A stretch of 64,000 nucleotides of DNA from Caldifarciminota bacterium (GCA_026986775.1 JALSNX010000022.1:27520-91519), one strand, 5' to 3'. Shown: positions 7,224 through 63,782, numbered from the stretch's first letter. The notes: generated from the letters alone by a model not told the origin. Numbers and translations are program-made.

Positions 7224-8108
7224 CCTGTATAGGACCGCTTTTTCAGTATGCAGCCTGTTTTCTGATTCCTGAAGAACCACTGAGTGAGGGCCATCAAGCA
7301 CTTCGTCAGTAATCTCTTCCCCACGATGGGCAGGCAGGCAGTGAAGGACTTTCACATGTGAGGGAGCATATTTGAGAAGTTCGGAATTAACCTGATAAGG
7401 TGCAAAGAGCTTCAGTCTCTTTTCCCGTTCTGCCTCCTGACCCATGGAAGCCCATACATCAGTATAAATAAAGTCTGCATCTTTTACCGCTTCCTTTGGG
7501 TCTCTCACAATCTCAAATTTTACTCCAAGCTCAAGGGCTTTTTTTACAATATAGCCGTTTGGCTCGTACTCATAGGGCGTTGCAATGGTAAACTTTCCTC
7601 CTAACAGGGCTGTAGCAGCAAGAAGTGAGTTTGCAACGTTATTACCGTCTCCTATATAGGCAAGGTTTACATTGAATTTACCGCTTATCTCATACATTGT
7701 CATGTAGTCTGCAAGTATCTGGCAGGGATGTTCAAGATCAGAAAGTGCATTTACCACAGGATGTTTTGAGTGTTCTGCAAGTTCAAGTAGAATACCATGA
7801 TGGAAAACTCTTGCTACAATGCCATCAGTCCAGTTATCAAGGTTTTTGGCCACGTCTTTGACAGATTCTCTCTTTCCCAGCTGGATGTCCTGAGGAGAGA
7901 GATAGACACCCTTCCCTCCAAGGTCGTATATAGCTCTTTCAAAGGTAACCCTTGTCCTGAGCGAGGGTTTCTGGAATATAAGGGCTATCATTTTGCCCTC
8001 TAACGGCCTCTCTTTTATTTCACCCTTTTTAAATTTAATGGATATTTCAATGAGTTCTTTAAGTTCCTCGGGAGAGAGGTCAAATATGGAAAGAAAATCC
8101 TTTTTCAT
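7212..8108 (-). CDS. argF: Ornithine carbamoyltransferase
   Basis: FQKPSLRTRVTFE, HPCQILADYMT, VLHCLPAHRGEEIT. Confidence 0.96.
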   Translation of the reverse strand: MKKDFLSIFDLSPEELKELIEISIKFKKGEIKERPLEGKMIALIFQKPSLRTRVTFERAIYDLGGKGVYLSPQDIQLGKRESVKDVAKNLDNWTDGIVARVFHHGILLELAEHSKHPVVNALSDLEHPCQILADYMTMYEISGKFNVNLAYIGDGNNVANSLLAATALLGGKFTIATPYEYEPNGYIVKKALELGVKFEIVRDPKEAVKDADFIYTDVWASMGQEAEREKRLKLFAPYQVNSELLKYAPSHVKVLHCLPAHRGEEITDEVLDGPHSVVLQESENRLHTEKAVLYRLFT

Positions 8109-30606: not shown

Positions 30607-30639
30607 TTGACATAACATCCCCCCCCTCATTATTATAAT
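30607..30639 (+). promoter_or_regulatory. sigma70-type promoter with C8 homopolymer in the spacer
   Basis: TTGACA-TAACAT-CCCCCCCC-TCAT-TATTAT (18-nt spacer) or TATAAT at 30634 (21-nt spacer). Confidence 0.65.
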
Positions 30640-30667: not shown

Positions 30668-31882
30668 ATGATAAAGTGGATGTTCATATTGTTTCTGGTT
30701 AACTGTAAATCATGCGGGTCCCACAGTTACACAGCATGGGGCATCTGGTGGGACATTAACAGTATAAGCACAATAAAAGTCTATATAAGTGATAATTTTG
30801 GAAGTGTGATTAGAGATGCAATAATCAGGAATGTAATAAACACATGGGGAAGTTATACACCTGACCATGGATTTTCTTTGCAATACACTCCCTATCAGAG
30901 TGATTGTTACATAGGAATTTACATAGATTCTGACCTCGGTGCTGATGAGCTTTATATGGAAGAACTTGCCATAACTGACCCACTGTGCTTTAACGATACC
31001 ACAGGCAGGATAGATGCGCCCAGTCCGTGTCATCCTGCAATAAAAATAAGTGTGGCAGACCCACATTTGTTGGCACAGCATGGCAAAGACCTATATACGA
31101 TATTACGTCATGAGATGGGGCATGCACTTGGATTGTGGCACACCAGAGACACCGCATGTCTTATGTACCCTTATTACACCGGAGTGAAGGATATTGGTGA
31201 AGGTGAAGATAACGGCCTTACCTGCATTTATGGTACTTTGTTTGGAGATAGAGTCAGACCATCATCAGGTTCAGATACCAGAGCAAAAGTAATAGATAGA
31301 AGGCATGTTACCATAAAAATACTTGAGGGAGCCTGTAATGGAGATGGAACTAATGGTGCGGATTCAGCAAAAATAAAGATGAATTTTTACCATAATGGGA
31401 AAGGTATGACATGGGAAGTAATAGACAGTTTTAATTATGCATCAAGATACTACGAAGACAGTATAGTGGTTGAATTACCTGTTGATGACACAAATTATTC
31501 AGGATGGCGTGTTGTAAAGAGTTACATTTACTTTCCTGATACTGTAATTGTTAATATTTCAGACACCTTCAATTTTAATGCTTTAGAGGTGCATGAGAAA
31601 TCATATACCAGTGATTTCATGAAGGACTCAATTATCAAAGTTTCTTTCAAAGACGGTATTTTACTGGTAACTAACAATGGAGATTTTCCCGTAAAACTCG
31701 CCATTTACAATGTTGCTGGACAGAAGGTGTTAAAATCATTATACTTAAATCCGAGGGAAACAAAAGGACATCATTTAAAACCGGGTTATTATTTGATAAG
31801 AGGTGAGTATGAAAACAGTGAAAATAAAAAAGAGGTATTTGTTAAGCGTTTTATCATACCTTATAAAGGAGGTAAGTTATGA
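30668..31882 (+). CDS. Secreted matrixin-like (metzincin) metalloprotease with C-terminal secretion-signal-like domain
   Basis: RHEMGHALGLWHTRDTACLMYP (HExxHxxGxxH and Met-turn); C-terminal VKLAIYNVAGQKVLKSLYLNPRETKGHHLKPGYYLIRGEY. Confidence 0.85.
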   Translation: MIKWMFILFLVNCKSCGSHSYTAWGIWWDINSISTIKVYISDNFGSVIRDAIIRNVINTWGSYTPDHGFSLQYTPYQSDCYIGIYIDSDLGADELYMEELAITDPLCFNDTTGRIDAPSPCHPAIKISVADPHLLAQHGKDLYTILRHEMGHALGLWHTRDTACLMYPYYTGVKDIGEGEDNGLTCIYGTLFGDRVRPSSGSDTRAKVIDRRHVTIKILEGACNGDGTNGADSAKIKMNFYHNGKGMTWEVIDSFNYASRYYEDSIVVELPVDDTNYSGWRVVKSYIYFPDTVIVNISDTFNFNALEVHEKSYTSDFMKDSIIKVSFKDGILLVTNNGDFPVKLAIYNVAGQKVLKSLYLNPRETKGHHLKPGYYLIRGEYENSENKKEVFVKRFIIPYKGGKL

Positions 31883-32943
31883 AAAAAGTCCTTTTAATAA
31901 TACTGATATTTTCTCTTAATTGCTCACTGATAAAGAAAAAAGACAATTTTGATTTAAGGCATATTGAAGGATATGTGGGCAGGTGGATGCTGAAACATGA
32001 GGTGGGAGGATATGTGGCAGCACAACTTTTGAAGATGTATCTTCTGGAGAAGGGTATAAAGGTAGATGATGAAGAATGGAGAGATATGGATGTAGCGAAG
32101 AAATGGCTAAATGCACATAAAGATTATTTCAGTGACAGTCTGATAGTAGGGGAGCTAATACGTTTATTTTCCCGGATAGGTATAAGCACTGGTATGGTGA
32201 TTTCAGGACGGATGGAGAGGGCTTATTTTGGATGGGAGTTTGATTTTGGAAAGGGAGAGAGGCTTTACTGGTATCCTGAACCCCGGAAGGTTATGGCATT
32301 GATGATGGGGCATTTAGAATACTTTACAGGCCCTTATTGTAAATATGGAAGAGACAATAAGAGGATTTTGATAACATTTCCATCTGGAGAATCAGGTCTG
32401 ATAAGTCCTGTAAACAGTGTTATTCCATGGAGAGGACCTCAGCATGTGGACAGTGTCCTTGTATTTTTTTACGAAGGTAAATGGGAGGATATGGAGTTTT
32501 TGAGAAAACTTAATCAACTTCACGCTACAATGGGTGTGCATATATATACAGGAATGGGTGCAGAAACCTTTATTTCACATTTTATAAGCAAAGAGTGTGT
32601 AAGATACACAAATGGTATATTCTTTTTAAAGGACAGCATATTTTATTATGCTTATCCTTTATCAGAAGAACTTTACAGGCATCCCACAGATGCCATCTTA
32701 CCTGAGGTAACAGAGGACCCATCCATTTATGTATGGGGAGAGAGAATAAGGAGAAAGGACACCATGAAGGGGATACCGTATTTTGATCCGCGTCCAGCCG
32801 GGCCGTCATTTCGTTATACAACTTATCTGGATGTAATGAATTTTATCAGGAGGCATAAAAAAGACTTAAAGAGAATAAGACGTAGATGGTTGAAGATGCA
32901 TAAAAAGACAAGAAAGCATTGGATGATATATCATTCTAAATAA
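31879..32943 (+). CDS. Hypothetical lipoprotein, translationally coupled to the protease
   Basis: MKKVLLIILIFSLNCS lipobox; ATGA overlap; no family recognised. Confidence 0.75.
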   Translation: MKKVLLIILIFSLNCSLIKKKDNFDLRHIEGYVGRWMLKHEVGGYVAAQLLKMYLLEKGIKVDDEEWRDMDVAKKWLNAHKDYFSDSLIVGELIRLFSRIGISTGMVISGRMERAYFGWEFDFGKGERLYWYPEPRKVMALMMGHLEYFTGPYCKYGRDNKRILITFPSGESGLISPVNSVIPWRGPQHVDSVLVFFYEGKWEDMEFLRKLNQLHATMGVHIYTGMGAETFISHFISKECVRYTNGIFFLKDSIFYYAYPLSEELYRHPTDAILPEVTEDPSIYVWGERIRRKDTMKGIPYFDPRPAGPSFRYTTYLDVMNFIRRHKKDLKRIRRRWLKMHKKTRKHWMIYHSK

Positions 32944-48764: not shown

Positions 48765-49151
48765 GTGATGAACATACCTGAAAATCTTAAGTATACGAAA
48801 GAGCATGAGTGGGTGAAAGTGGAAGGTGAGTTTGCTATCGTGGGGATTACGGATTATGCTCAGGGAGAGTTGTCTGATATAGTTTACGTTGAACTTCCAG
48901 AGGTTGGAACAAATCTAAATAAGGGTGATGTGATAACAACCCTTGAAGCAGTTAAAACAGTAGCTGATGTGTACAGCCCTGTTTCAGGTGAGATAGTTGA
49001 GGTAAATGAAAAACTCGCCGATGAGCCCGGTCTTATAAATCAGGACCCATACGGTGAAGGCTGGATTGTGAAAATAAAGATTTCAAATCCTGATGAGTTA
49101 AACGATTTACTTGGTGCAGATGAGTATAAAAAGGTTATAGAGGAAGACTAA
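48765..49151 (+). CDS. gcvH: Glycine cleavage system H protein
   Basis: YTKEHEWVKVEGEFAIVGITDYAQGELSDIVYVELPEVG; lipoyl-lysine region TTLEAVKTVADVYSPVSGE. Confidence 0.97.
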   Translation: MMNIPENLKYTKEHEWVKVEGEFAIVGITDYAQGELSDIVYVELPEVGTNLNKGDVITTLEAVKTVADVYSPVSGEIVEVNEKLADEPGLINQDPYGEGWIVKIKISNPDELNDLLGADEYKKVIEED

Positions 49152-53350: not shown

Positions 53351-54039
53351 TGTATCTTTTTCTGTTTGACGTAGATGGCACCCTTATAAATTCTGGAAAT
53401 GCTGGCAGGATGGCTCTTGAGCGTGTTTTCAGAGAAATTTATGAGGTTGAAAATGCCATGAATGGCATAGTGCCTGACGGAAAAACAGATATTGAAATCA
53501 TTAAGGAGATGTTGCGCGAAAAAGCTAAAATAGATAATGTTGACGATGGTATAGTTGATTTTATAGTTTCCGAATACATAAAAAACCTGGAGGAAACCAT
53601 AAACAACCCTCATTACAAGGTAATAGATGGAGCGAAGGAATATGTTCAGAAAATACACTATTCAAAGCGAAACATTGCAGGTCTTGCAACAGGTAATATT
53701 GAAATGGGCGCCAGAGTAAAATTGAAACCAGCAGGACTTTTAAAATACTTTAAATTTGGAGGTTATGGCTCTGACTCAGAAAGCAGAGTGGAAATCCTGA
53801 AAATCGCTTTTGAGAGAGCCAGGAAATTTGCGGATGAAGAAATAGAGAGAGTTTATGTTGTGGGTGATACCCCAAGGGATATACGGGCTGCAAAGGAAGC
53901 AGGTTTTATAAGTGTTGCAGTGGCAACAGGCAACTATAAAATGGATGACCTTCTTAAAGAAGGCCCCGATTTTCTATTCAGTTCTCTAAAAGATCCCGAT
54001 GCCATAAAACTCCTTAAGGATTGGGATCTCTTTTCTTAG
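53350..54039 (+). CDS. HAD family hydrolase (phosphoglycolate phosphatase-like)
   Basis: LFDVDGTLINSGNAGRMALERVF, YVVGDTPRDIRAAKEAGF. Confidence 0.92.
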   Translation: MYLFLFDVDGTLINSGNAGRMALERVFREIYEVENAMNGIVPDGKTDIEIIKEMLREKAKIDNVDDGIVDFIVSEYIKNLEETINNPHYKVIDGAKEYVQKIHYSKRNIAGLATGNIEMGARVKLKPAGLLKYFKFGGYGSDSESRVEILKIAFERARKFADEEIERVYVVGDTPRDIRAAKEAGFISVAVATGNYKMDDLLKEGPDFLFSSLKDPDAIKLLKDWDLFS

Positions 54040-54909
54040 AGGTATAGAACAACATCCTTCATAGAATCTGACCCTGTAGCCCAGAGACTTGGCCTTCTTT
54101 ATACCTTCATAAGACCACAGGGCCATGGCATCTATCAGGTTGTTCTCTAAAAGAGCTGTTTCAAGCACTTTTCTGTATTTTCCTCTGGGCCTTGCACAAC
54201 CGAGTGTAACACGTTTGAAAAGTTTTCTGGCATATGAAAAGACCTCTATAACATCCTTAATATCTGGAGTTTCAGCATTCATGACGTCCGGCATGAGAAC
54301 CACCAGTATGACCTCTTCTTTCTGAAATTCAGCAAGCATATCAAGGGCACTGAATTCTCCCTTTATTTTACCGCCGTGGATACCAATTATTACGTGTGGT
54401 GCAACTCCAAGATCGCTTAAGTAAACGTTTTTGAGGGTATTCTCCATTACGCTAAAGTCATCTATGTGATAAACGTATTTCAGCGTTTCAGCATCTCCAA
54501 CTATGTCAATTAGTATCTGTTTTATAGGTGTGTTTTTGAACAATTCAGCGATATCTGAAGAAATGTTCATTCCACCATGGGCTATGAGATAGAGTCCTGT
54601 CTCGTAATTGGTGAGGACTGGTAAAAATCTTTTCCACGGCATTCTGCCGTTTTTATCGCACCCTCCGCTGAGCAGGGCTCCTATCATGCCATTTTTTTCA
54701 AAATTATTGAGGATGCGTAGTAGTTCGTCGGGTGTTCTTATATGATACATGCTCTTTAAAAGGTAGCCTTTACAGTGTTCACATCCAAGAGCACAGGAAG
54801 GTCCGGTTATTGAAACAGCCGGAAACCTGCTTCTGTGCCCGTATGCATTGATCATTCCCGGTAAAAAGATATCCAGGACTTTTCTATTGCTTCTTTCAGG
54901 TCGTTCCAT
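53986..54909 (-). CDS. Radical SAM protein, LipS1/LipS2-type lipoyl synthase component
   Basis: CALGCEHCKG; LGCARPRG; EGCCSIP; cluster context. Confidence 0.6.
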   Translation of the reverse strand: MERPERSNRKVLDIFLPGMINAYGHRSRFPAVSITGPSCALGCEHCKGYLLKSMYHIRTPDELLRILNNFEKNGMIGALLSGGCDKNGRMPWKRFLPVLTNYETGLYLIAHGGMNISSDIAELFKNTPIKQILIDIVGDAETLKYVYHIDDFSVMENTLKNVYLSDLGVAPHVIIGIHGGKIKGEFSALDMLAEFQKEEVILVVLMPDVMNAETPDIKDVIEVFSYARKLFKRVTLGCARPRGKYRKVLETALLENNLIDAMALWSYEGIKKAKSLGYRVRFYEGCCSIPLRKEIPILKEFYGIGIF

Positions 54910-55817
54910 TTTTTCTCCATTAAGTCTCTTCTTTTCTTTCTTCTTTTCAGATACTTCGCAAGATATGAGGATTGCAGAAGTCTTTCGTATTCCTCTTTGT
55001 TTATTCTGCCCTTTATCAAAGAAGAAGCCATGTGGGCAGATTCAAAAGCATTCTGTATACCTGCACCTGTAAGGGGGTCCGCAAATCCTCCGGCATCACC
55101 AATAAGTATATGATTAGAATGCAGGGATTTACGCAGGACAGATAGCGGAATGAGCCCGGTATGAGCCTCTCTGTATCTGACATCTTCAATGATTCCCTGT
55201 TTTTTTAAAACGGTGAGCCATTTAAGAAGTAAAGACTTTAGATTTCTGCTTCGTGCCCCTACTCCGCAGTTTGCCTCGTCCTTTCTCGGAAAACACCAGG
55301 CATATCCGTGAAGTATTTCCTCTGAAAAATAAATCAGTGTTTTTTTCAGGTTTCTTTTAAGTGTAACTCTAACATTGATTGCAGGGAGAAAGTTGTGTTT
55401 GTTTTCCTTTTCATTCATAGGACCCCACGGTCCATAAGCTCCGACTATCCATTCCGCTTTATATGTCCCGCAGTTAGTTTTCACTGTATTTTTGTCTACT
55501 TTTACTACTCTTTCACCCAGATGTATTGTGCATTTTAAACTCTCCAGCATACTTTTCTGTAATTTTTCCCTGTCTATGATATATCCGGGAGCTTTGACTG
55601 TTCTTCTGGTATCGTTGACTATAAGTTCCATAAAAGATGTCTCAGCCACCTTGAATGGTGTAAAATGGGATAGCGCTGGAACCCACTCTGCACAGGCTAT
55701 GTTTTTAAATGGCTTTTTTTTCGCATCTATTAGCAATAATCTAACATCTTCAATTTCTTTAGCCAGAGCAAGACCTGAAGGGCCTGCTCCGATTATGATA
55801 ACATCGTATTCAATCAT
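54852..55817 (-). CDS. FAD-dependent geranylgeranyl-reductase-like oxidoreductase (LipT-like by context)
   Basis: DVIIIGAGPSGLALAKEI; HILIGDAGGFADPLTGAGIQNAFESAHMAS. Confidence 0.8.
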   Translation of the reverse strand: MIEYDVIIIGAGPSGLALAKEIEDVRLLLIDAKKKPFKNIACAEWVPALSHFTPFKVAETSFMELIVNDTRRTVKAPGYIIDREKLQKSMLESLKCTIHLGERVVKVDKNTVKTNCGTYKAEWIVGAYGPWGPMNEKENKHNFLPAINVRVTLKRNLKKTLIYFSEEILHGYAWCFPRKDEANCGVGARSRNLKSLLLKWLTVLKKQGIIEDVRYREAHTGLIPLSVLRKSLHSNHILIGDAGGFADPLTGAGIQNAFESAHMASSLIKGRINKEEYERLLQSSYLAKYLKRRKKRRDLMEKKWNDLKEAIEKSWISFYRE

Positions 55818-56832
55818 AAAGGAAGATTTCTTTTTTGATTTTTTCTATATCGTGAGGTTCCGGAGGAAACGGGTGATTCCTTATATTATCACCGGGTCGT
55901 TCATTGGCATAGGGTCTATTACATGCAACCCTTCCTTTTTTCCCTACACATCCTGAGGTCATAAAGCATTCACCATCTTCAATATATGGTGTTATATCAA
56001 CGCCGAAATCAATAATCTGGTCCTTTGCGTTAAATTGCATGGATTCGTATCTTGATATTTCATTGTCAATAAGATACCTTGCAATCTGGATTCTCCTGTA
56101 TGTGCCTATGGGAGGTGGTGACTGGTTCTCAAGTAAACTTCCCTTCTCCGGATAAAATGAAAAAAGGTGAGTTTCGCCACCAAGGTCTTTTATAAACTGT
56201 ATTGCTCTTACCATCTCCCTTTCCGTTTCTCCAAGTCCCACAATAAAATGACTTCCCACATTGCCTTTGCCGAAAATAGATACGGCTTCTTTGAAAACGG
56301 TTATGTATCTTTCCCATTTATGTGGACCTTTTACGCTTTTCCCTCTGTGTTTTTCAAAAAGTTCAGGAGTGGCAGCGTCTATTGCTATTCCTATTTTATC
56401 TGCACCGGATTTTTTAAAGTCTTCAAGGTCATCGGGCAATATGACAGTTGGAGAGATGAGAAATGAGATTGGAATATCGGTTTTTTCTTTTATTCTTTTT
56501 GCTATTTCCATTGTATCCAGCACAGCCTTTCTCCTTGTTATCATGGAAATACATACCCTCTCAATTTTATCCTCTCTTTCCTGCATTCTCTTTATAATCT
56601 CATCTGTTGAGTAAAGAGGCCAGTCCACACGGATAAATGATTTTTCATTATAGGTACCCGGTCTTAACTTCTGGAGCCCGCAATAGGAACAGTTGGCGGA
56701 ACATCCTTTATCATAGTGTATTAGCAAATTTATGCAGTATAGTCTGGCATTTCTGTAAAACCTTCCTCTTTTCAAGCCCAGTGTTATGCTTGCTGCAAGA
56801 CTGGTCCTTACAAAGTCAGGGCTTTCCATCAT
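55810..56832 (-). CDS. Radical SAM protein, LipS1/LipS2-type lipoyl synthase component
   Basis: YDKGCSANCSYCGLQ; C-terminal Cys set CFMTSGCVGKKGRVACNRPYANERPG; cluster context. Confidence 0.65.
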   Translation of the reverse strand: MMESPDFVRTSLAASITLGLKRGRFYRNARLYCINLLIHYDKGCSANCSYCGLQKLRPGTYNEKSFIRVDWPLYSTDEIIKRMQEREDKIERVCISMITRRKAVLDTMEIAKRIKEKTDIPISFLISPTVILPDDLEDFKKSGADKIGIAIDAATPELFEKHRGKSVKGPHKWERYITVFKEAVSIFGKGNVGSHFIVGLGETEREMVRAIQFIKDLGGETHLFSFYPEKGSLLENQSPPPIGTYRRIQIARYLIDNEISRYESMQFNAKDQIIDFGVDITPYIEDGECFMTSGCVGKKGRVACNRPYANERPGDNIRNHPFPPEPHDIEKIKKEIFLYD

Positions 56833-58418
56833 TTTTTCACTCCTTTCATGTTGTATTGTGATATTATACTGAGTGTTTTTCTTATAAGTGGAAGATTTAA
56901 AGTGGTCTGGCTCTCAAACCTCCCTTTATATGCCTCTTTTGCTTTACCTAAATCATAGCATGTGGTATTTTCAATATTTATGAGAAGCCCTTTAAGACCG
57001 CTTTCAAAGAATTCTTCCTGGTGCTTAACATAAAAGGCTTCACAACAACTGCCAATATACTCGTATATACCCTTACTTTTGAGTTTATCAAAGGTTTCCA
57101 TAAGGTCCTCAAAACTCGTAATGGTGACAGGCTCAAGTCCATATTCATACGAAAGTCCATACGCATCCCCAACAGTGCATAAACCACATACAGTGCAGTT
57201 ATTTTCATATCTCAAAGAGCAGTCTGTGTCCTTTGAACAGTAGGGCAACAGGAAAACCTGAGGCTTAAAACTACCAAGGTCACTTATATTTACAAGAAAG
57301 ATGTCATTTGCCTCTTTTGGTGTAAAGCCCGCCTCTATTAAATGCCATTTTTTGAACACCTCTTTTATGGCTGTAAGCAGGTCATCTTCTTTAATCCCGC
57401 TGGGTGCATACTTCATGAAGAAATCGTGGACGATTTCCCTCACGTTATCAGGGTTAAATCTGATGTTTTTTAACAGGCTTTCTATCCTGTAAATACTGTC
57501 CGGGGGATTTAAGAAAAAGTCTCCTGTAATCAGAGTGTTTCTTATTGCCTTCTTTCGGGTATTTATCGTCATGGATACCTTGATGGTGCCGTTTTCTGTT
57601 CTAAAATAGCCGTTTAGTACATCCTGCTCCTCTTCAGGAAAGACTATTTTATTAACCCATTTTTCGCTTCTGAAATAAGACAGAATTTCCCTGTGTATTT
57701 TTTTGACCTCCTCAGGGATTTCTGAGTGTACAAGTTTTACTCCAAGAAATTCTTTAATACCGGAGAGCAATACGCTTTTCAGTTTATCCCTTTCGGGCAC
57801 ATATCCTATCTCGTGCTCAATACAGGTTACCCTTTCCCTTACTGAATCTATTTCCTTTGGGTTCAGCTTTTCTATGGGCACCTTCAGGCTTTTAAGCATT
57901 CTCTCTATTTTGTCCTCGGCGAGCAATGTTCCCTGAAATAGAAAGTTGCCTTCATAAGTTACCCCACCCATTCCGGATATTTTCTTTCCTTTAACTTCTA
58001 TATCGTTCCTTTCCCTGAATTCTGCGTTTATACCAATTTTTGATAGAGCGTAAGCCACTGCGCTTCCAAAAATTTTGGAAAGTTCACGCAAAGTGTATGG
58101 AAAGTCCGATATTTTGCCTATGATTTCCCAGCCCAATTGCGAGGGGTCAAAGTATATGGCACCACCACCGGTTATTCTTCTGTTGATGTCAATACCTGCT
58201 TCTTTGCAGTAACCTGTTCTTATCTCCTGATTAACCGATTGAAAGTATCCCACGAGCACGCATTCAGGGGAGAAGGAAAGAAATCTAAGGAATGGTCCAT
58301 AGATATGTGCTTTCTCAAGCAATGCCTGGTCCATTGCCATATTCCATGCAGCGTCTTTCGTCCCCGTATCAACAACCTTAAGGGTAAGATGTTTGAATTT
58401 ACCTTTATCAATAATCAT
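56829..58418 (-). CDS. Lipoate-protein ligase (LplA domain, accessory domain) fused to DUF116-like domain
   Basis: DINRRITGGGAIYFDPSQLGWEII, ERNDIEVKGKKISGMGGVTYEGNFLFQGTLL; C-terminal YCSKDTDCSLRYENNCTVCGLCTVGDAYGLSYEYG. Confidence 0.85.
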   Translation of the reverse strand: MIIDKGKFKHLTLKVVDTGTKDAAWNMAMDQALLEKAHIYGPFLRFLSFSPECVLVGYFQSVNQEIRTGYCKEAGIDINRRITGGGAIYFDPSQLGWEIIGKISDFPYTLRELSKIFGSAVAYALSKIGINAEFRERNDIEVKGKKISGMGGVTYEGNFLFQGTLLAEDKIERMLKSLKVPIEKLNPKEIDSVRERVTCIEHEIGYVPERDKLKSVLLSGIKEFLGVKLVHSEIPEEVKKIHREILSYFRSEKWVNKIVFPEEEQDVLNGYFRTENGTIKVSMTINTRKKAIRNTLITGDFFLNPPDSIYRIESLLKNIRFNPDNVREIVHDFFMKYAPSGIKEDDLLTAIKEVFKKWHLIEAGFTPKEANDIFLVNISDLGSFKPQVFLLPYCSKDTDCSLRYENNCTVCGLCTVGDAYGLSYEYGLEPVTITSFEDLMETFDKLKSKGIYEYIGSCCEAFYVKHQEEFFESGLKGLLINIENTTCYDLGKAKEAYKGRFESQTTLNLPLIRKTLSIISQYNMKGVKK

Positions 58419-58555: not shown

Positions 58556-58583
58556 TTGACAATACCCCCCCCTATGTTATAAT
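58556..58583 (+). promoter_or_regulatory. sigma70-type promoter of RiPP-like locus with C8 homopolymer in the spacer
   Basis: TTGACA-ATA-CCCCCCCC-TATGT-TATAAT (16-nt spacer). Confidence 0.8.
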
Positions 58584-58603
58584 TTTATTTAATGTGACAA
58601 AAC

Positions 58604-58627
58604 TTTCACTCGTCCGGATGGGTGAAA
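58604..58627 (+). other. 5' UTR hairpin of RiPP-like transcript
   Basis: TTTCACTCGT-CCGG-ATGGGTGAAA, 10-bp stem including G-U pairs. Confidence 0.6.
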
Positions 58628-58650
58628 ATACAACAAAAAGGAGGTGAATC

Positions 58651-58746
58651 ATGAAGGTGATAAGATACCCTCTACCAATGGGGAAAGCCATAAGAGATAG
58701 CCTGCATAAAGATAATTGTTGTAGGCAAAAAGCAAATATAAAGTAA
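58651..58746 (+). CDS. Putative RiPP precursor peptide (31 aa, Cys-Cys)
   Basis: MKVIRYPLPMGKAIRDSLHKDNCCRQKANIK*; strong SD aaaaggaggtgaatc; directly upstream of radical SAM/SPASM gene; absent from ORF track. Confidence 0.75.
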   Translation: MKVIRYPLPMGKAIRDSLHKDNCCRQKANIK

Positions 58747-58756
58747 TAGGTATAAA

Positions 58757-58785
58757 AGCCGGTCCCTATTTAAAAGGGACCGGTT
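58757..58785 (+). terminator. Strong intercistronic hairpin (attenuator/RNA stabiliser) after precursor
   Basis: AGCCGGTCCC...GGGACCGGTT stem without a following U-tract. Confidence 0.65.
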
Positions 58786-58809
58786 AAGCAATACGAAAGG
58801 AGGTTAAAA

Positions 58810-60126
58810 GTGAAGTGGACAATGTTTATGATGAAAGTTGAATCTAATAAGGAGGTGTTGCTGTATAATACCTATAATAGAGCGGTTGTTATTCTGGATA
58901 AACTGGAGTATAATAATATAAACGATTTGATTCATGGAAAAAAAGTAAAAGAAGTGCAAAGTAATAAGAGTGAAGTAAAAAGTCAGATTGAGAAATTGCG
59001 TGAGATGAAATTTATAATGGAAGATGAAACGAATGAAAAGGAGGAATATTTAAAAGAATTGAAAGAATTTTACGAAAACGACGATTTTCTGGCTTTATTG
59101 GTGCTACCGACGACAGCATGTAATTTTGATTGTACTTATTGTTATCAGAAGGGGATTCCTCTTCATGTTGTTAACCGGAATATAATAGCATCTATAATGA
59201 GCCGAATAGAAGAATTATTGGAAGATAATAAAGAGATAAAAATGACTAAAATAGATTTTTTTGGCGGAGAACCCTTATTGAACTGGAATTTCATAGAAGA
59301 TTTTACAAAGGAATTTTCTTCTTTGATGAGAAAGAGGACAATAGATTATTTTTTAAAGTTGACTACCAATGGATATTTACTTGATTTAAATAAAATAAAT
59401 TTTTTATTAAAATATAACTTACAACAAATTCAGATTACCATGGACGGTCTTCCTGAAGTGCACGATAAAAGGAGAATGCTAAAAGGTACTCATAAAGGTA
59501 CGTTTGACAGAATATTTAATAACTTAAAGGGTCTACTTGATTTAAAAGACGCACGAGATTTGCTGATACTTTTAAGAATAAATTTTGATTACCAGAATGT
59601 AGATCATATTCCTGATTTTTTGGATTTCATAAAGAGAGAATTGGGCGTTGATAATATTGAAATTTCCTTTGGCCAGGTTACCAGCCCTATCAATTTTAAT
59701 TACGAATATATGATTCCGTTTGATGAAGTACCCGAACATTATATTAAACTTTATAAAGTGCGATTGGGTTTCACACTTTCAGACACTTTCACATTTGGTT
59801 CTCTATGCTTTGCGAAAAGGAAATTTAGCTATGTGGTTGCACCTAATGGTGATATATACAAGTGCGTAAGTTCGGTTGGTGTAGATAGAATGAAAGAAGG
59901 AAATATTTATAAAAATCCTCTATATAAAATAAGAGATTACCTGTTTGTTGACTTATACGATGAGTGTTTTAAGGAAAAGTGTCCCTTTATCCCGATATGC
60001 CATACTGGATGTAGATTCGTATCTTTCATAAGATATGGGGATATTAAGAAACGGGATTGTCACAGGGAAGAAATGAAAAGAATTAACTCAGAAATTCTGA
60101 AAATCCAGTATTTAGATGGATACTGA
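58810..60126 (+). CDS. Radical SAM/SPASM peptide maturase
   Basis: TTACNFDCTYCYQ; FGGEPLLNW; SPASM-like CVSS...CFKEKCPFIPICHTGC...DCHREEM; N-terminal peptide-maturase-like FMMKVESNKEVLLYNTYNRAVV. Confidence 0.88.
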   Translation: MKWTMFMMKVESNKEVLLYNTYNRAVVILDKLEYNNINDLIHGKKVKEVQSNKSEVKSQIEKLREMKFIMEDETNEKEEYLKELKEFYENDDFLALLVLPTTACNFDCTYCYQKGIPLHVVNRNIIASIMSRIEELLEDNKEIKMTKIDFFGGEPLLNWNFIEDFTKEFSSLMRKRTIDYFLKLTTNGYLLDLNKINFLLKYNLQQIQITMDGLPEVHDKRRMLKGTHKGTFDRIFNNLKGLLDLKDARDLLILLRINFDYQNVDHIPDFLDFIKRELGVDNIEISFGQVTSPINFNYEYMIPFDEVPEHYIKLYKVRLGFTLSDTFTFGSLCFAKRKFSYVVAPNGDIYKCVSSVGVDRMKEGNIYKNPLYKIRDYLFVDLYDECFKEKCPFIPICHTGCRFVSFIRYGDIKKRDCHREEMKRINSEILKIQYLDGY

Positions 60127-60137
60127 GAAAATTAATT

Positions 60138-61787
60138 ATGCGATCTCTACTAAATCTGTTAAAACGGATTAAAAGTAAGCAATTAAAATTAAAATTTATA
60201 AGATTATTGTTTGTAACCATTTTATTAAAATTGGTTGGAGCCATATCTCCTCTTATTGCTAAAAAACTTATAGATACGGCAGTGTATACCAGGAATATGC
60301 AAAGTTTCAAAAATTTCGGTATTTTGTATGTCGGTATCACCATATTATTCATAATGCTTCTTTCTGTTCGGTATTTTTATGAAAAACTTTTTTATGTGGA
60401 TGTATTGAATTCACTAAGGAAAAATGTTTTAAATAAAATCTATTCTTCCAGAGCGATGCATGTGCTTGAAAAGGATTCAGGTTATTTTATACAGAGGATT
60501 AACTCGGATGTTAAAAGTATTGCAAGTTTTTTCTCTACAGATGTAAATGTATTTGTTACAAATGTTATTATATCTGTTATTATATTTTATTTGATGGTAG
60601 AATTATCTTTTAGACTTACTCTGGTGGTTGTAATACTTTTTATATTTTTCTATATAGTTTCAAAGAAGATACTTCCCATTATAAAAAGGTTATCCAGAAA
60701 ACTTATGGAAACTGAGGAGGAACTAAACACAATCACAAATGATTCTGTGGTTGGTCTATTGCATATTAAGAGTTTTAACCTTCAGAATTATATGCGTGGC
60801 AAGGTTATAGAGGTATTGGGTAAATATACGGAAACTTTGAAAAAATATACACTTTATGGAGTTATATTTGATATCCTTATTGTTTCAGGCACATTAAATC
60901 TGGTTGATACTGTAATAGAGGTGGGAGGAGGAGTCCTTATTCTGAGAAGTGTCATAAGTGTCGGTACACTTATGGCATTTATGTCCTATTTTTATAAGAT
61001 ATGGGATTCGGTAGAGGTTGTGCTGGATTTTCCCAGGACTCTCAGAGAAAAAGGGGTCTCAGCAGAGAGAGTGCTTGAACTTTTTAACCTGCCCGAAGAA
61101 GATAATTCGTTAACCAGTGAGATTGATATTGATGAAATTGATACGATAGTTTTAGAGGACATTGAACTTTCACTGGGAAATAGGAAGATATTTGATGGTT
61201 TGAATCTCAGGATCAAAAAGAAAGACCATATCTGTATTTTAGGAGATAATGGCACAGGTAAAACTACTTTGTGTCGTCTCTTGGTACGGATAATTGAGCC
61301 TGATAGGGGGACAGTTTATATAAATGGAATTGATTATAAAAAACTGTCTCCAGTAGTATTGAGAAGCAAAATTATGCATATTCCGCAGGAACCTTTTATT
61401 TTCAGAGGTAGCATAGAAGAAAATATCTACTTTGATGTTTCTCCTCATAAAAAAGATAGTTTTCCTTCATACTTCATGGAAACACAGAAGAAAAACGCAG
61501 GAGAGGTTGTGGATAACAAAAATACGAACCTGTCTGGTGGAGAAAAAAAACTTATTCAACTCGCACGGGGTTTATATAGGGATGGTGAGGTATACATTAT
61601 TGATGAGCCTTTTGCTTTTGTGGATGCAAAATACACAGAAATTCTCAAAGATTTTATTGAAAAGCAGTTTAAAAATAAGACCTTGATTGTTATAACACAT
61701 GACAAGACAATACTTTCTTCTTTGTGTGAAAAGGTGTATGTCCTTGAAAAGGGCAGGATAAGAAAATATCAGCATTATAAACACTAA
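60138..61787 (+). CDS. ABC exporter (fused TMD-NBD) without an N-terminal C39 peptidase
   Basis: LGDNGTGKTTLCRLL, IPQEPFIFRGSIEENIYF, NLSGGEKKLIQLARGLYRDGEVYIIDEPFAFVDA. Confidence 0.93.
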   Translation: MRSLLNLLKRIKSKQLKLKFIRLLFVTILLKLVGAISPLIAKKLIDTAVYTRNMQSFKNFGILYVGITILFIMLLSVRYFYEKLFYVDVLNSLRKNVLNKIYSSRAMHVLEKDSGYFIQRINSDVKSIASFFSTDVNVFVTNVIISVIIFYLMVELSFRLTLVVVILFIFFYIVSKKILPIIKRLSRKLMETEEELNTITNDSVVGLLHIKSFNLQNYMRGKVIEVLGKYTETLKKYTLYGVIFDILIVSGTLNLVDTVIEVGGGVLILRSVISVGTLMAFMSYFYKIWDSVEVVLDFPRTLREKGVSAERVLELFNLPEEDNSLTSEIDIDEIDTIVLEDIELSLGNRKIFDGLNLRIKKKDHICILGDNGTGKTTLCRLLVRIIEPDRGTVYINGIDYKKLSPVVLRSKIMHIPQEPFIFRGSIEENIYFDVSPHKKDSFPSYFMETQKKNAGEVVDNKNTNLSGGEKKLIQLARGLYRDGEVYIIDEPFAFVDAKYTEILKDFIEKQFKNKTLIVITHDKTILSSLCEKVYVLEKGRIRKYQHYKH

Positions 61788-61799
61788 GAGGAGGAGCAA

Positions 61800-63782
61800 A
61801 TGAGTTTTATTGTTGCAGCATTGTTGTGTTTTGGTCACTGGAAAATACCCTCAAATTATATGCAAAAAGCCTGGGAGGTATACCGAATTTCATATCAGCA
61901 GCGTCCCTGTCCAGGCGCATCACCCAGCAGAACAACTGTAGTTTACTATTTCCATGATACAACCAATTTATATTTTGTCTTCAAATGCGAAGTGAGGGGG
62001 GAACAGGTAAAACGCTTATCTTTGCGGGACCACATTGATGGTGATGAGGTTTATGTATATATTACACCGAATAGACTTAAGGGTACAGGCTATTATTTCG
62101 CTTTAAGTTTCACGGGTATAAAAGGGGATGCTTATTCAAATAATAACGGAGAATCATGGAATAAAGACTGGGATGGTTTATGGTATTCAGATGTTGTATA
62201 TAAGGATTCTTTCGTGTTGCTTGGATTCAAAATACCTGTGTACAATTTTTTCTATACCGATAAATTGGACTGGAGTGTCAACTTCAAAAGATTTATTGCT
62301 GTTTATGAGGAGGAAGATTCTTATGTGAGGTTTGGCCCCTCAGGTCTGGAACCTATTTCCATGTATGCAGAATTACCCGTGGAAAACATAAAATTTAGTA
62401 CACATGTGATAAGAATATTTCCGAGTTTTACTATGAGGAAGTATTATGATGACAATAAGTACAGGATGTGGATGGGAGGAGATGTAGTTTACGCACCAAG
62501 AGCCAATTTTTTGACAGGCATTACTGTCTATCCGGATTATTCTGAGATAGAGTCTGACCCATATACCATTAATATATCAAAGTACAGGACATACTATCCT
62601 GAAAAAAGGGAATTTTTTATTAAGGATATGGATGTTTTCAGGACTCAAAAAGCATCTTTCTACTCAAGGAATGTGGGTGCAAAAACATCTTTCGGAGAGG
62701 TGATCCCGGTTAAATATGGCTTTAAATCACATTATTCCATTAAAAGCATGGATTTAGCATTGTTGAGTGTAATCACAGATGGGTTGGTGAGCAGTGATAC
62801 CGTGATATCTTCAGAAGTTTATACTCTTGGCAGGTTCAAATTTTCCCTGAGAAATGCGAGGGTGGGCTTTTTTTACGGAGAAGTAAGACATGATACCATA
62901 TTACAGAGTATAAAAACAGTAGATATTTCTTATGATAAAAAGAATCTGAGGTTGAAAGGCCAATTGAGCGAGGATAAATCACACAAAAGACTATTCTATT
63001 TAAAATCAATATACGAAAAGCGTGGTTTCTGGCTTATCTCGGAGATGGAAAACACAAATGACAGCTTTTCGGTTAATCGGATAAGCTATTATTATCCGGC
63101 GAAGAGAATCAGTTTAAAAGTACGGCGCGATTACTGGAATAGTAAGTATCTTTTGAAGAATTACTCATGGGGATTGGGTCTGGAAAGAGTGAAAGAATAC
63201 GGTGAAAATGAATGGACTACAGCCGGTAATTTTGACATGGATTGTGTATTCGCAAACAATTATGAACTCTATACGAATATTAAACTTATAAACGATTATG
63301 AACAGGGAAAAAAATTTTTAAGACGCTATGTTTATGTCTACTCCGGTACGGATTTTTCAAAGAAAATTGCGGGTGGTCTGAACATAACCTGGCAATCCAG
63401 AGAATTTGATTACATGTCAATGATTTTTGTAAGATCTATAAATGTACTTCCCTTTGTTCAACTGATGACGGAACATTTTGACCTGAGCACAAGTTATTCG
63501 TTTTACCTGTTGCGGGGCATTGAGAAGGATACAGTATTTAAATACACGACTTTTACTTTGAAAGGAACCGTATACTTTAACAGGCATTTGTTCGTCCGTT
63601 CCCTCTTATCTCAGGAAAACAGCGCAGATACTTATATCACCAATTTAATTTTAACATGGAAGTTTATGCCTGGAAGTTATTTATACTTTGTAATAAATAA
63701 GGATCTCAATATTAAAGATAACAGCATAAATTTTAAAAATTCTGCCAATGCATTCAAAGTAAAAATACAGTTCTGGCTATAG
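61800..63782 (+). CDS. DUF5916-like protein (CBM9-like N-terminal domain plus outer-membrane beta-barrel)
   Basis: YYFHDTTNLYFVFKCEV...DGDEVYVYITPNRLKGTGYYFALSFTGIKGDAY; YYPEKREFFIKDMDVF; amphipathic strands to a terminal aromatic-rich FKVKIQFWL; SD gaggagg. Confidence 0.75.
   Translation: MSFIVAALLCFGHWKIPSNYMQKAWEVYRISYQQRPCPGASPSRTTVVYYFHDTTNLYFVFKCEVRGEQVKRLSLRDHIDGDEVYVYITPNRLKGTGYYFALSFTGIKGDAYSNNNGESWNKDWDGLWYSDVVYKDSFVLLGFKIPVYNFFYTDKLDWSVNFKRFIAVYEEEDSYVRFGPSGLEPISMYAELPVENIKFSTHVIRIFPSFTMRKYYDDNKYRMWMGGDVVYAPRANFLTGITVYPDYSEIESDPYTINISKYRTYYPEKREFFIKDMDVFRTQKASFYSRNVGAKTSFGEVIPVKYGFKSHYSIKSMDLALLSVITDGLVSSDTVISSEVYTLGRFKFSLRNARVGFFYGEVRHDTILQSIKTVDISYDKKNLRLKGQLSEDKSHKRLFYLKSIYEKRGFWLISEMENTNDSFSVNRISYYYPAKRISLKVRRDYWNSKYLLKNYSWGLGLERVKEYGENEWTTAGNFDMDCVFANNYELYTNIKLINDYEQGKKFLRRYVYVYSGTDFSKKIAGGLNITWQSREFDYMSMIFVRSINVLPFVQLMTEHFDLSTSYSFYLLRGIEKDTVFKYTTFTLKGTVYFNRHLFVRSLLSQENSADTYITNLILTWKFMPGSYLYFVINKDLNIKDNSINFKNSANAFKVKIQFWL

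Follow-up and report, generated by a model that had tools for sequence, protein, structure and literature searches.

Introduction

CteB and other SCIFF/ranthipeptide maturases of ribosomally synthesized and post-translationally modified peptides (RiPPs) combine an N-terminus resembling a RiPP recognition element (RRE) with radical S-adenosylmethionine (SAM) and SPASM cysteines, next to a Cys-containing peptide. Tripartite or type 1 peptide export, known from colicin V and from Bacteroidales RiPP clusters, uses an ATP-binding cassette (ABC) transporter or a peptidase-containing ABC transporter (PCAT) together with a membrane fusion protein and TolC (PMC10352776). In gonococcal fetA, poly-C between the -35 and -10 elements changes expression (PMC5320596). 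The phase-variable promoters of Neisseria fetA and porA have poly-C or poly-G spacers, that is, a homopolymer of ~8-12 bases between -35 and -10 and a variable spacer length. Here we analyze a locus that resembles each of these systems in part. It is an operon for a small Cys-containing peptide at 58556-63782 of a 64,000-nucleotide stretch of Caldifarciminota bacterium DNA (the window; G000:C22:27520-91519), whose source genome is 2.18 Mb in size and 98% complete.

The locus also departs from each of them. Its maturase is only ~21% identical to CteB, its predicted precursor is 31 amino acids (aa) long with two adjacent cysteines whereas the SCIFF peptide has six, and the maturase reaches 94.7 bits against the SCIFF model TIGR03974, whose cut-off is 425, which places it outside the SCIFF/CteB family. 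As in tripartite or type 1 export, a RiPP is predicted to cross both membranes, with an ABC transporter as the first step, but the operon has no C39 peptidase, adaptor or TolC-type gene and instead encodes a predicted outer-membrane barrel of the DUF5916 family. Unlike at fetA and porA, about nine RiPP-type loci in one genome have homopolymer-spacer promoters. Literature searches returned no paper linking lanthipeptides to phase variation or RiPPs to poly-C promoters, and none naming DUF5916.

An earlier note on this DNA had described the locus as self-contained and RiPP-like, and had set beforehand the two points on which that description was to be judged, namely conservation of the small upstream open reading frame (ORF) and linkage of the DUF5916 gene. 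Both were found, and the description is supported.

Results

Four co-oriented ORFs lie behind one promoter at 58556-63782 and encode, in order, the 31-aa peptide, a radical SAM/SPASM protein, an ABC exporter and a DUF5916 protein; all the parts that the earlier note had listed are in place. These genes form a real operon, which is predicted to make and chemically modify a small Cys-containing peptide and which probably also exports the product. The contig stops 218 bases past the last gene.

The precursor ORF, MKVIRYPLPMGKAIRDSLHKDNCCRQKANIK (58651-58746, + strand), follows a Shine-Dalgarno sequence, AAAGGAGGTGA (58637-58647, +), with an 11-base match that is the sole such 11-mer in the window on either strand. 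A sister species (G003) has a homologous ORF of 32 aa, MKIIKRPVTTLDASKRTSLHKDGCCHAYRVSK, in the same position of its orthologous locus. The two peptides match at 48% over 25 aa, have the MKxI start and SLHKDxCC in common, and pair with an E value of 0.02 in a whole-genome search. Gene order is also kept in G003, from the precursor through the maturase (41%) to the exporter (43%). Elsewhere in the phylum, small ORFs with a strong Shine-Dalgarno sequence near related maturases carry at least two cysteines in 28 of 32 cases, as against 4 of 15 in control stretches (p = 7e-5); MKYIYRPKHIDYNKRAILPICGCFLTRCDEIS and MVIVDMSSNDVKINEIVRGDESSWCGPLGNGPGISTAAK are examples from the window's own genome. 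The small upstream ORF is thus conserved in G003, and short, Cys-rich ORFs of the same kind stand beside maturases of the phylum. None of the NCBIfam peptide models matched these precursors.

Between the precursor and maturase genes lies a hairpin (58757-58785, +; -21.2 kcal/mol, z -3.8) with no T-run downstream. Neither this hairpin nor the C8 tract in the promoter spacer (see below) was among the parts given in the earlier note. Hairpins of unrelated sequence occur in the same precursor-enzyme gap at sister loci, including a lanthipeptide-type locus, and therefore it is structure and not sequence that is kept there; the element may be a read-through attenuator or may serve processing or stability of the mRNA. 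A short ORF followed by a strong hairpin would also be expected if the peptide were an unmodified leader that regulates the maturase gene. We consider this very improbable because the hairpin has no T-run, its sequence is unconserved while the peptide is conserved, the maturase has an RRE-like domain, and sister loci have several precursor ORFs or precursor ORFs located downstream. On sequence comparison, the 31-codon ORF is the predicted precursor.

The maturase (438 aa; 58810-60126, +) was assigned by profile, alignment and structure model. It matched Radical_SAM with an E value of 7e-17 and carries the motif CNFDCTYC (CX3CX2C). Its score against Pfam SPASM was 15.9 bits, under the cut-off of 21.5. 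Across 36 relatives there is no variation at the SPASM-type cysteines 333, 352, 391, 397, 401 and 417, the CX3CX2C cysteines or GGEP, which bears out the radical SAM motif and the C-terminal Cys-rich, SPASM-like region noted earlier. In the structure model (pLDDT, predicted local distance difference test, 88.5), residues 7-65 form a beta-beta-beta-alpha-alpha arrangement, so that the modeled N-terminus has an RRE-like fold as judged by topology rather than by an RRE-profile score.

A Foldseek search with this model ranked CteB first (E 5e-21, template modeling score 0.70), followed by TigE, anSME and SuiB, and CteB (5wgg/5why) is the nearest solved structure by both sequence and fold. The nearest NCBIfam equivalogs, aligned over almost the full length, are TIGR04463, Clo7bot (TIGR04334), CefB (NF038107) and geopeptide (TIGR04280), with scores of 150-177 bits against cut-offs of 400-600. 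The maturase therefore represents a separate subfamily, and no named family can serve to assign its crosslink type. Because of the Foldseek order, thioether formation is our best guess, by analogy. A scan of named genomes found this maturase type in many phyla.

The exporter (549 aa; 60138-61787, +) consists of a transmembrane and a nucleotide-binding domain. ABC_membrane and ABC_tran were its only Pfam domains and a C39 peptidase was absent, so it does not qualify as a PCAT. The last gene (61800-63782, +) encodes a 660-aa protein that scored 38.3 bits against PF19313 (DUF5916; cut-off 22.6), contains the family motif YPEKREFF and is predicted to form an outer-membrane beta-barrel. It had been read as a CBM9-plus-barrel protein; the DUF5916 part of that reading stands, and the CBM9 part does not, as the CBM9 profile found no match in the window protein (it matched 6 of 20 relatives). 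A sequence search of the PDB with the barrel gave just weak, irrelevant matches (Cdc37).

A related maturase locus was scored as linked when a DUF5916-like barrel lay no more than 9 kb away on the same strand; 100 genomes of the phylum were covered. Enough flanking sequence was present at 27 evaluable loci; four others run into contig ends, and a further one shows the barrel N-terminus alone. Such counts depend on draft genomes. A barrel was present at 20 of the 27 evaluable loci, where the chance rate is ~0.7% per locus; the binomial probability of 8e-37 overstates the evidence, since the loci are related. The proposed linkage of DUF5916 genes to maturases thus holds within the phylum. A general association of DUF5916 with RiPPs was rejected, because a scan of other named taxa, from which near relatives were omitted, found no DUF5916 barrel at any of 80 related maturase loci, and our claim is limited to this phylum. 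Membership in DUF5916 does not by itself mark a RiPP protein: 80 of the 100 phylum genomes have the family, mostly as a lone gene of ~700 aa.

In a tree of the barrels, 14 linked barrels form one group. The window barrel, together with an exporter-linked barrel of another family (L181), and the barrels of L064, L073, L061 and L188 fall outside this group, among unlinked DUF5916 proteins. A single origin of the linkage was considered, but the window barrel lies outside the main linked clade (long branches leave its exact place unsure), and the scatter of linked barrels over the tree indicates that the pairing arose several times.

The barrel could be the outer-membrane exit of the operon, or it could be a surface binder, a receptor or a self-protection protein with a CBM9-like ligand domain. 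A binding role would suit the detection of CBM9_1 in 6 of 20 relatives, the absence of an adjacent exporter from most DUF5916 proteins of the phylum, and the finding that the G003 orthologs of the exporter and maturase sit beside a non-orthologous barrel. Several observations favor transport instead: (i) 16 of 19 linked barrel genes overlap the preceding gene or start within 30 nucleotides (nt) of it, compared with 9 of 39 other barrel genes, and the gene before a linked barrel encodes an ABC exporter or an ABC-2-type permease, a translational type of coupling; (ii) barrels have paired with exporters repeatedly and independently; (iii) at L054 and L181 an exporter and a barrel occur with no maturase nearby; and (iv) tripartite-type genes stand in the barrel's stead at two kinds of barrel-less RiPP loci, with OEP, HlyD and AcrB genes at L015 and a MacB permease at L217, which favors an outer-membrane conduit. 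Coupling, repeated pairing and substitution together form the pattern expected of a replaceable outer-membrane exit. We regard the binder as unlikely, if a serious contender, and prefer the barrel as an exit.

The promoter of the operon, TTGACA-ATACCCCCCCCTATGT-TATAAT (58556-58583, +), is a 12/12 sigma-70-type match with a 16-nt spacer and a TG before the -10 element. Promoter scans marked a C8 homopolymer in its spacer (58565-58572, +) as a candidate tract for slipped-strand phase variation; the orthologous G003 promoter has the same architecture, with C10 and a 19-nt spacer. When genomes were scanned with the pattern TTGAC..C7..TANAAT, using the reversed pattern as a control, the window's own genome gave 12 sites with the pattern and none with the control. 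The 100 phylum genomes together held 23 sites, 21 of them within this genus (four genomes) and two in the 96 others, with none in other genera of the same order; the reversed pattern matched once in all. Moreover, all C runs of at least nine bases in the own genome (9/9) sit in such spacers, one of them at a contig end where the -35 element is cut. The control and the placement of the long runs led us to reject the C tract as a chance feature of the genome.

These promoters precede about nine RiPP-type loci and some genes for secreted proteins. The RiPP-type loci include the window operon, L011 (in which the maturase gene is broken), L012, L013, L015, the duplicated L157/L158 and L217; the exporter-barrel pair L054 and the LanKC lanthipeptide-type locus L215 also follow such promoters. 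The secreted or surface proteins are a C25 peptidase with a Por sorting tail, a matrixin, a BspA-like protein and, in G001, a NIDO protein. The window holds a second C8-spacer promoter (30607-30639, +) before the gene for a predicted secreted matrixin-like metallopeptidase (30668-31882). At 30668-32943, downstream of this second promoter, a lipoprotein-like gene accompanies the metallopeptidase gene.

Perfect palindromes of the form CACC-centre-GGTG, with a variable centre (for example, CACC-TCGA-GGTG), lie directly after the -10 element at L010, L013, L015, L054, L215, L216 and L055, and may be either operators or 5' mRNA stems. In the window operon, the 5' untranslated region has a stem-loop, TTTCAC...GTGAAA (58604-58627, +; dG -10.0), and several sister promoters have perfect palindromes at the matching site.

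The C-rich spacer might accordingly bind a dedicated regulator, or merely be an accepted spacer, in promoters that do not vary. Extra regulation is suggested by the palindromes just 3' of the -10 element in many of these promoters, and spacers of 16-18 nt are the commonest in a range of 14-20 nt (21 nt under the TATAAT reading at 30607). Against this stand tract lengths of C9 and C11 between otherwise identical flanks at L054, L015 and L011, interrupted tracts in the L010 and L215 promoters, and replacement of C by T19 at L009. This T19 lies between TTGATT and TATAAT (7463-7481), before a CGCFLT-type RiPP locus, and is the sole A/T run of at least 12 bases in the 344 kb examined from the window's own genome; at L062, the related locus of G001, C7 takes its place. 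From the varying tract length, the interrupted tracts and T19, homopolymer character seems to outweigh base identity. We consider an invariant spacer or regulator site quite unlikely. The homopolymer-spacer promoters look like cases of slipped-strand phase variation, by analogy with Neisseria fetA, and many such operons of the genus appear, from their promoter sequences, to be switched on and off by homopolymers.

Other loci of the genus showed further features. L157 (4118-12120) and L158 (3375-11377), on G000:C4, are near-identical cassettes ~17 kb apart, each with an ABC-2 transporter, a precursor with a His/Asp-rich core (HDHHADGHADMHAD), a radical SAM protein, a barrel and an ABC exporter; the pair is either a duplication or an assembly repeat. 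L215 (3670-10556, G000:C2) is a LanKC-type lanthipeptide locus with RamC_N, kinase and LANC_like domains; its poly-C promoter is interrupted, and a strong hairpin follows its 43-aa precursor. L011 (6694-7842, G000:C27), whose maturase gene is broken by several stops while the barrel, the exporter and the C11 promoter are intact, is a decaying RiPP locus. A Por secretion-tail domain was found on the C25 peptidase at L157 (343-2700) and, below the cut-off, on a NIDO protein at L219 (3232-5037), which suggests that the genus has a type IX secretion system.

In the window itself, an operon unlinked in function diverges from the RiPP locus on the opposite strand (53986-58418). It encodes a lipoate ligase fused to DUF116, a LipS2-like protein, a geranylgeranyl-reductase-like flavoprotein and a LipS1-like protein, and looks like a two-enzyme LipS1/LipS2 lipoyl pathway; both of its radical SAM proteins scored somewhat under curated cut-offs. 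gcvH (48768-49151) is close to it. An Rfam scan of the window gave nothing beyond one tRNA.

Discussion

We think it reasonably likely that the locus is a minimal RiPP operon with CteB/SCIFF-like crosslinking, exit through an ABC exporter and a DUF5916 barrel, and expression set by a C tract. Gain or loss of C in the slippery tract would alter the distance between -35 and -10 and leave the promoter ON or OFF, so that members of a clone would express differing subsets of the RiPP and secreted-protein repertoire. In the ON state, the hairpin after the precursor gene would raise precursor over enzyme and give a precursor-rich mRNA. The RRE-like domain of the enzyme, a putative member of the CteB/SCIFF-like thioether group, would bind the N-terminal leader of the 31-aa peptide, and the maturase would crosslink the Cys-Cys core (Cys23/Cys24). 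The ABC exporter would then pump the product over the inner membrane. Because there is no C39 domain, the leader would be removed by an unlinked protease or kept. The product would leave through, or with the help of, the outer-membrane DUF5916 barrel, which would replace the adaptor and TolC.

Several points weigh against this reading. The maturase lies far under every NCBIfam equivalog cut-off, and the Cys-Cys core of the window peptide differs from the CxCFxxxC type seen in several paralogues. For the barrel, a single-sequence AlphaFold model reached a pLDDT of only 30, and the barrel fold and pore are thus predictions; the non-orthologous barrel of the orthologous G003 locus belongs to a different branch; and L010 and L012 are near neither a barrel nor tripartite genes. 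As for the promoters, all those of G001 and G002 have spacers of 14-15 nt, which could be a species optimum, and homopolymer lengths may be miscalled in metagenome assemblies, on which our analysis is based.

The purpose of such a system is probably competition or signaling among relatives, where bet-hedging pays. For this uncultured diderm genus as a whole, we tentatively propose, with some doubt, that it keeps ~10 or more RiPP-type operons, most of them behind phase-variable poly-C or poly-T promoters that would give each cell its own subset, and that many of the products are exported by an undescribed ABC-plus-DUF5916 route with no adaptor or TolC. If this is true, it would provide the first function for a branch of DUF5916 and a simpler secretion route for modified peptides in diderm bacteria. 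Contingency-locus control, so far known mainly for the surface structures of pathogens, would then also extend to an entire peptide repertoire.

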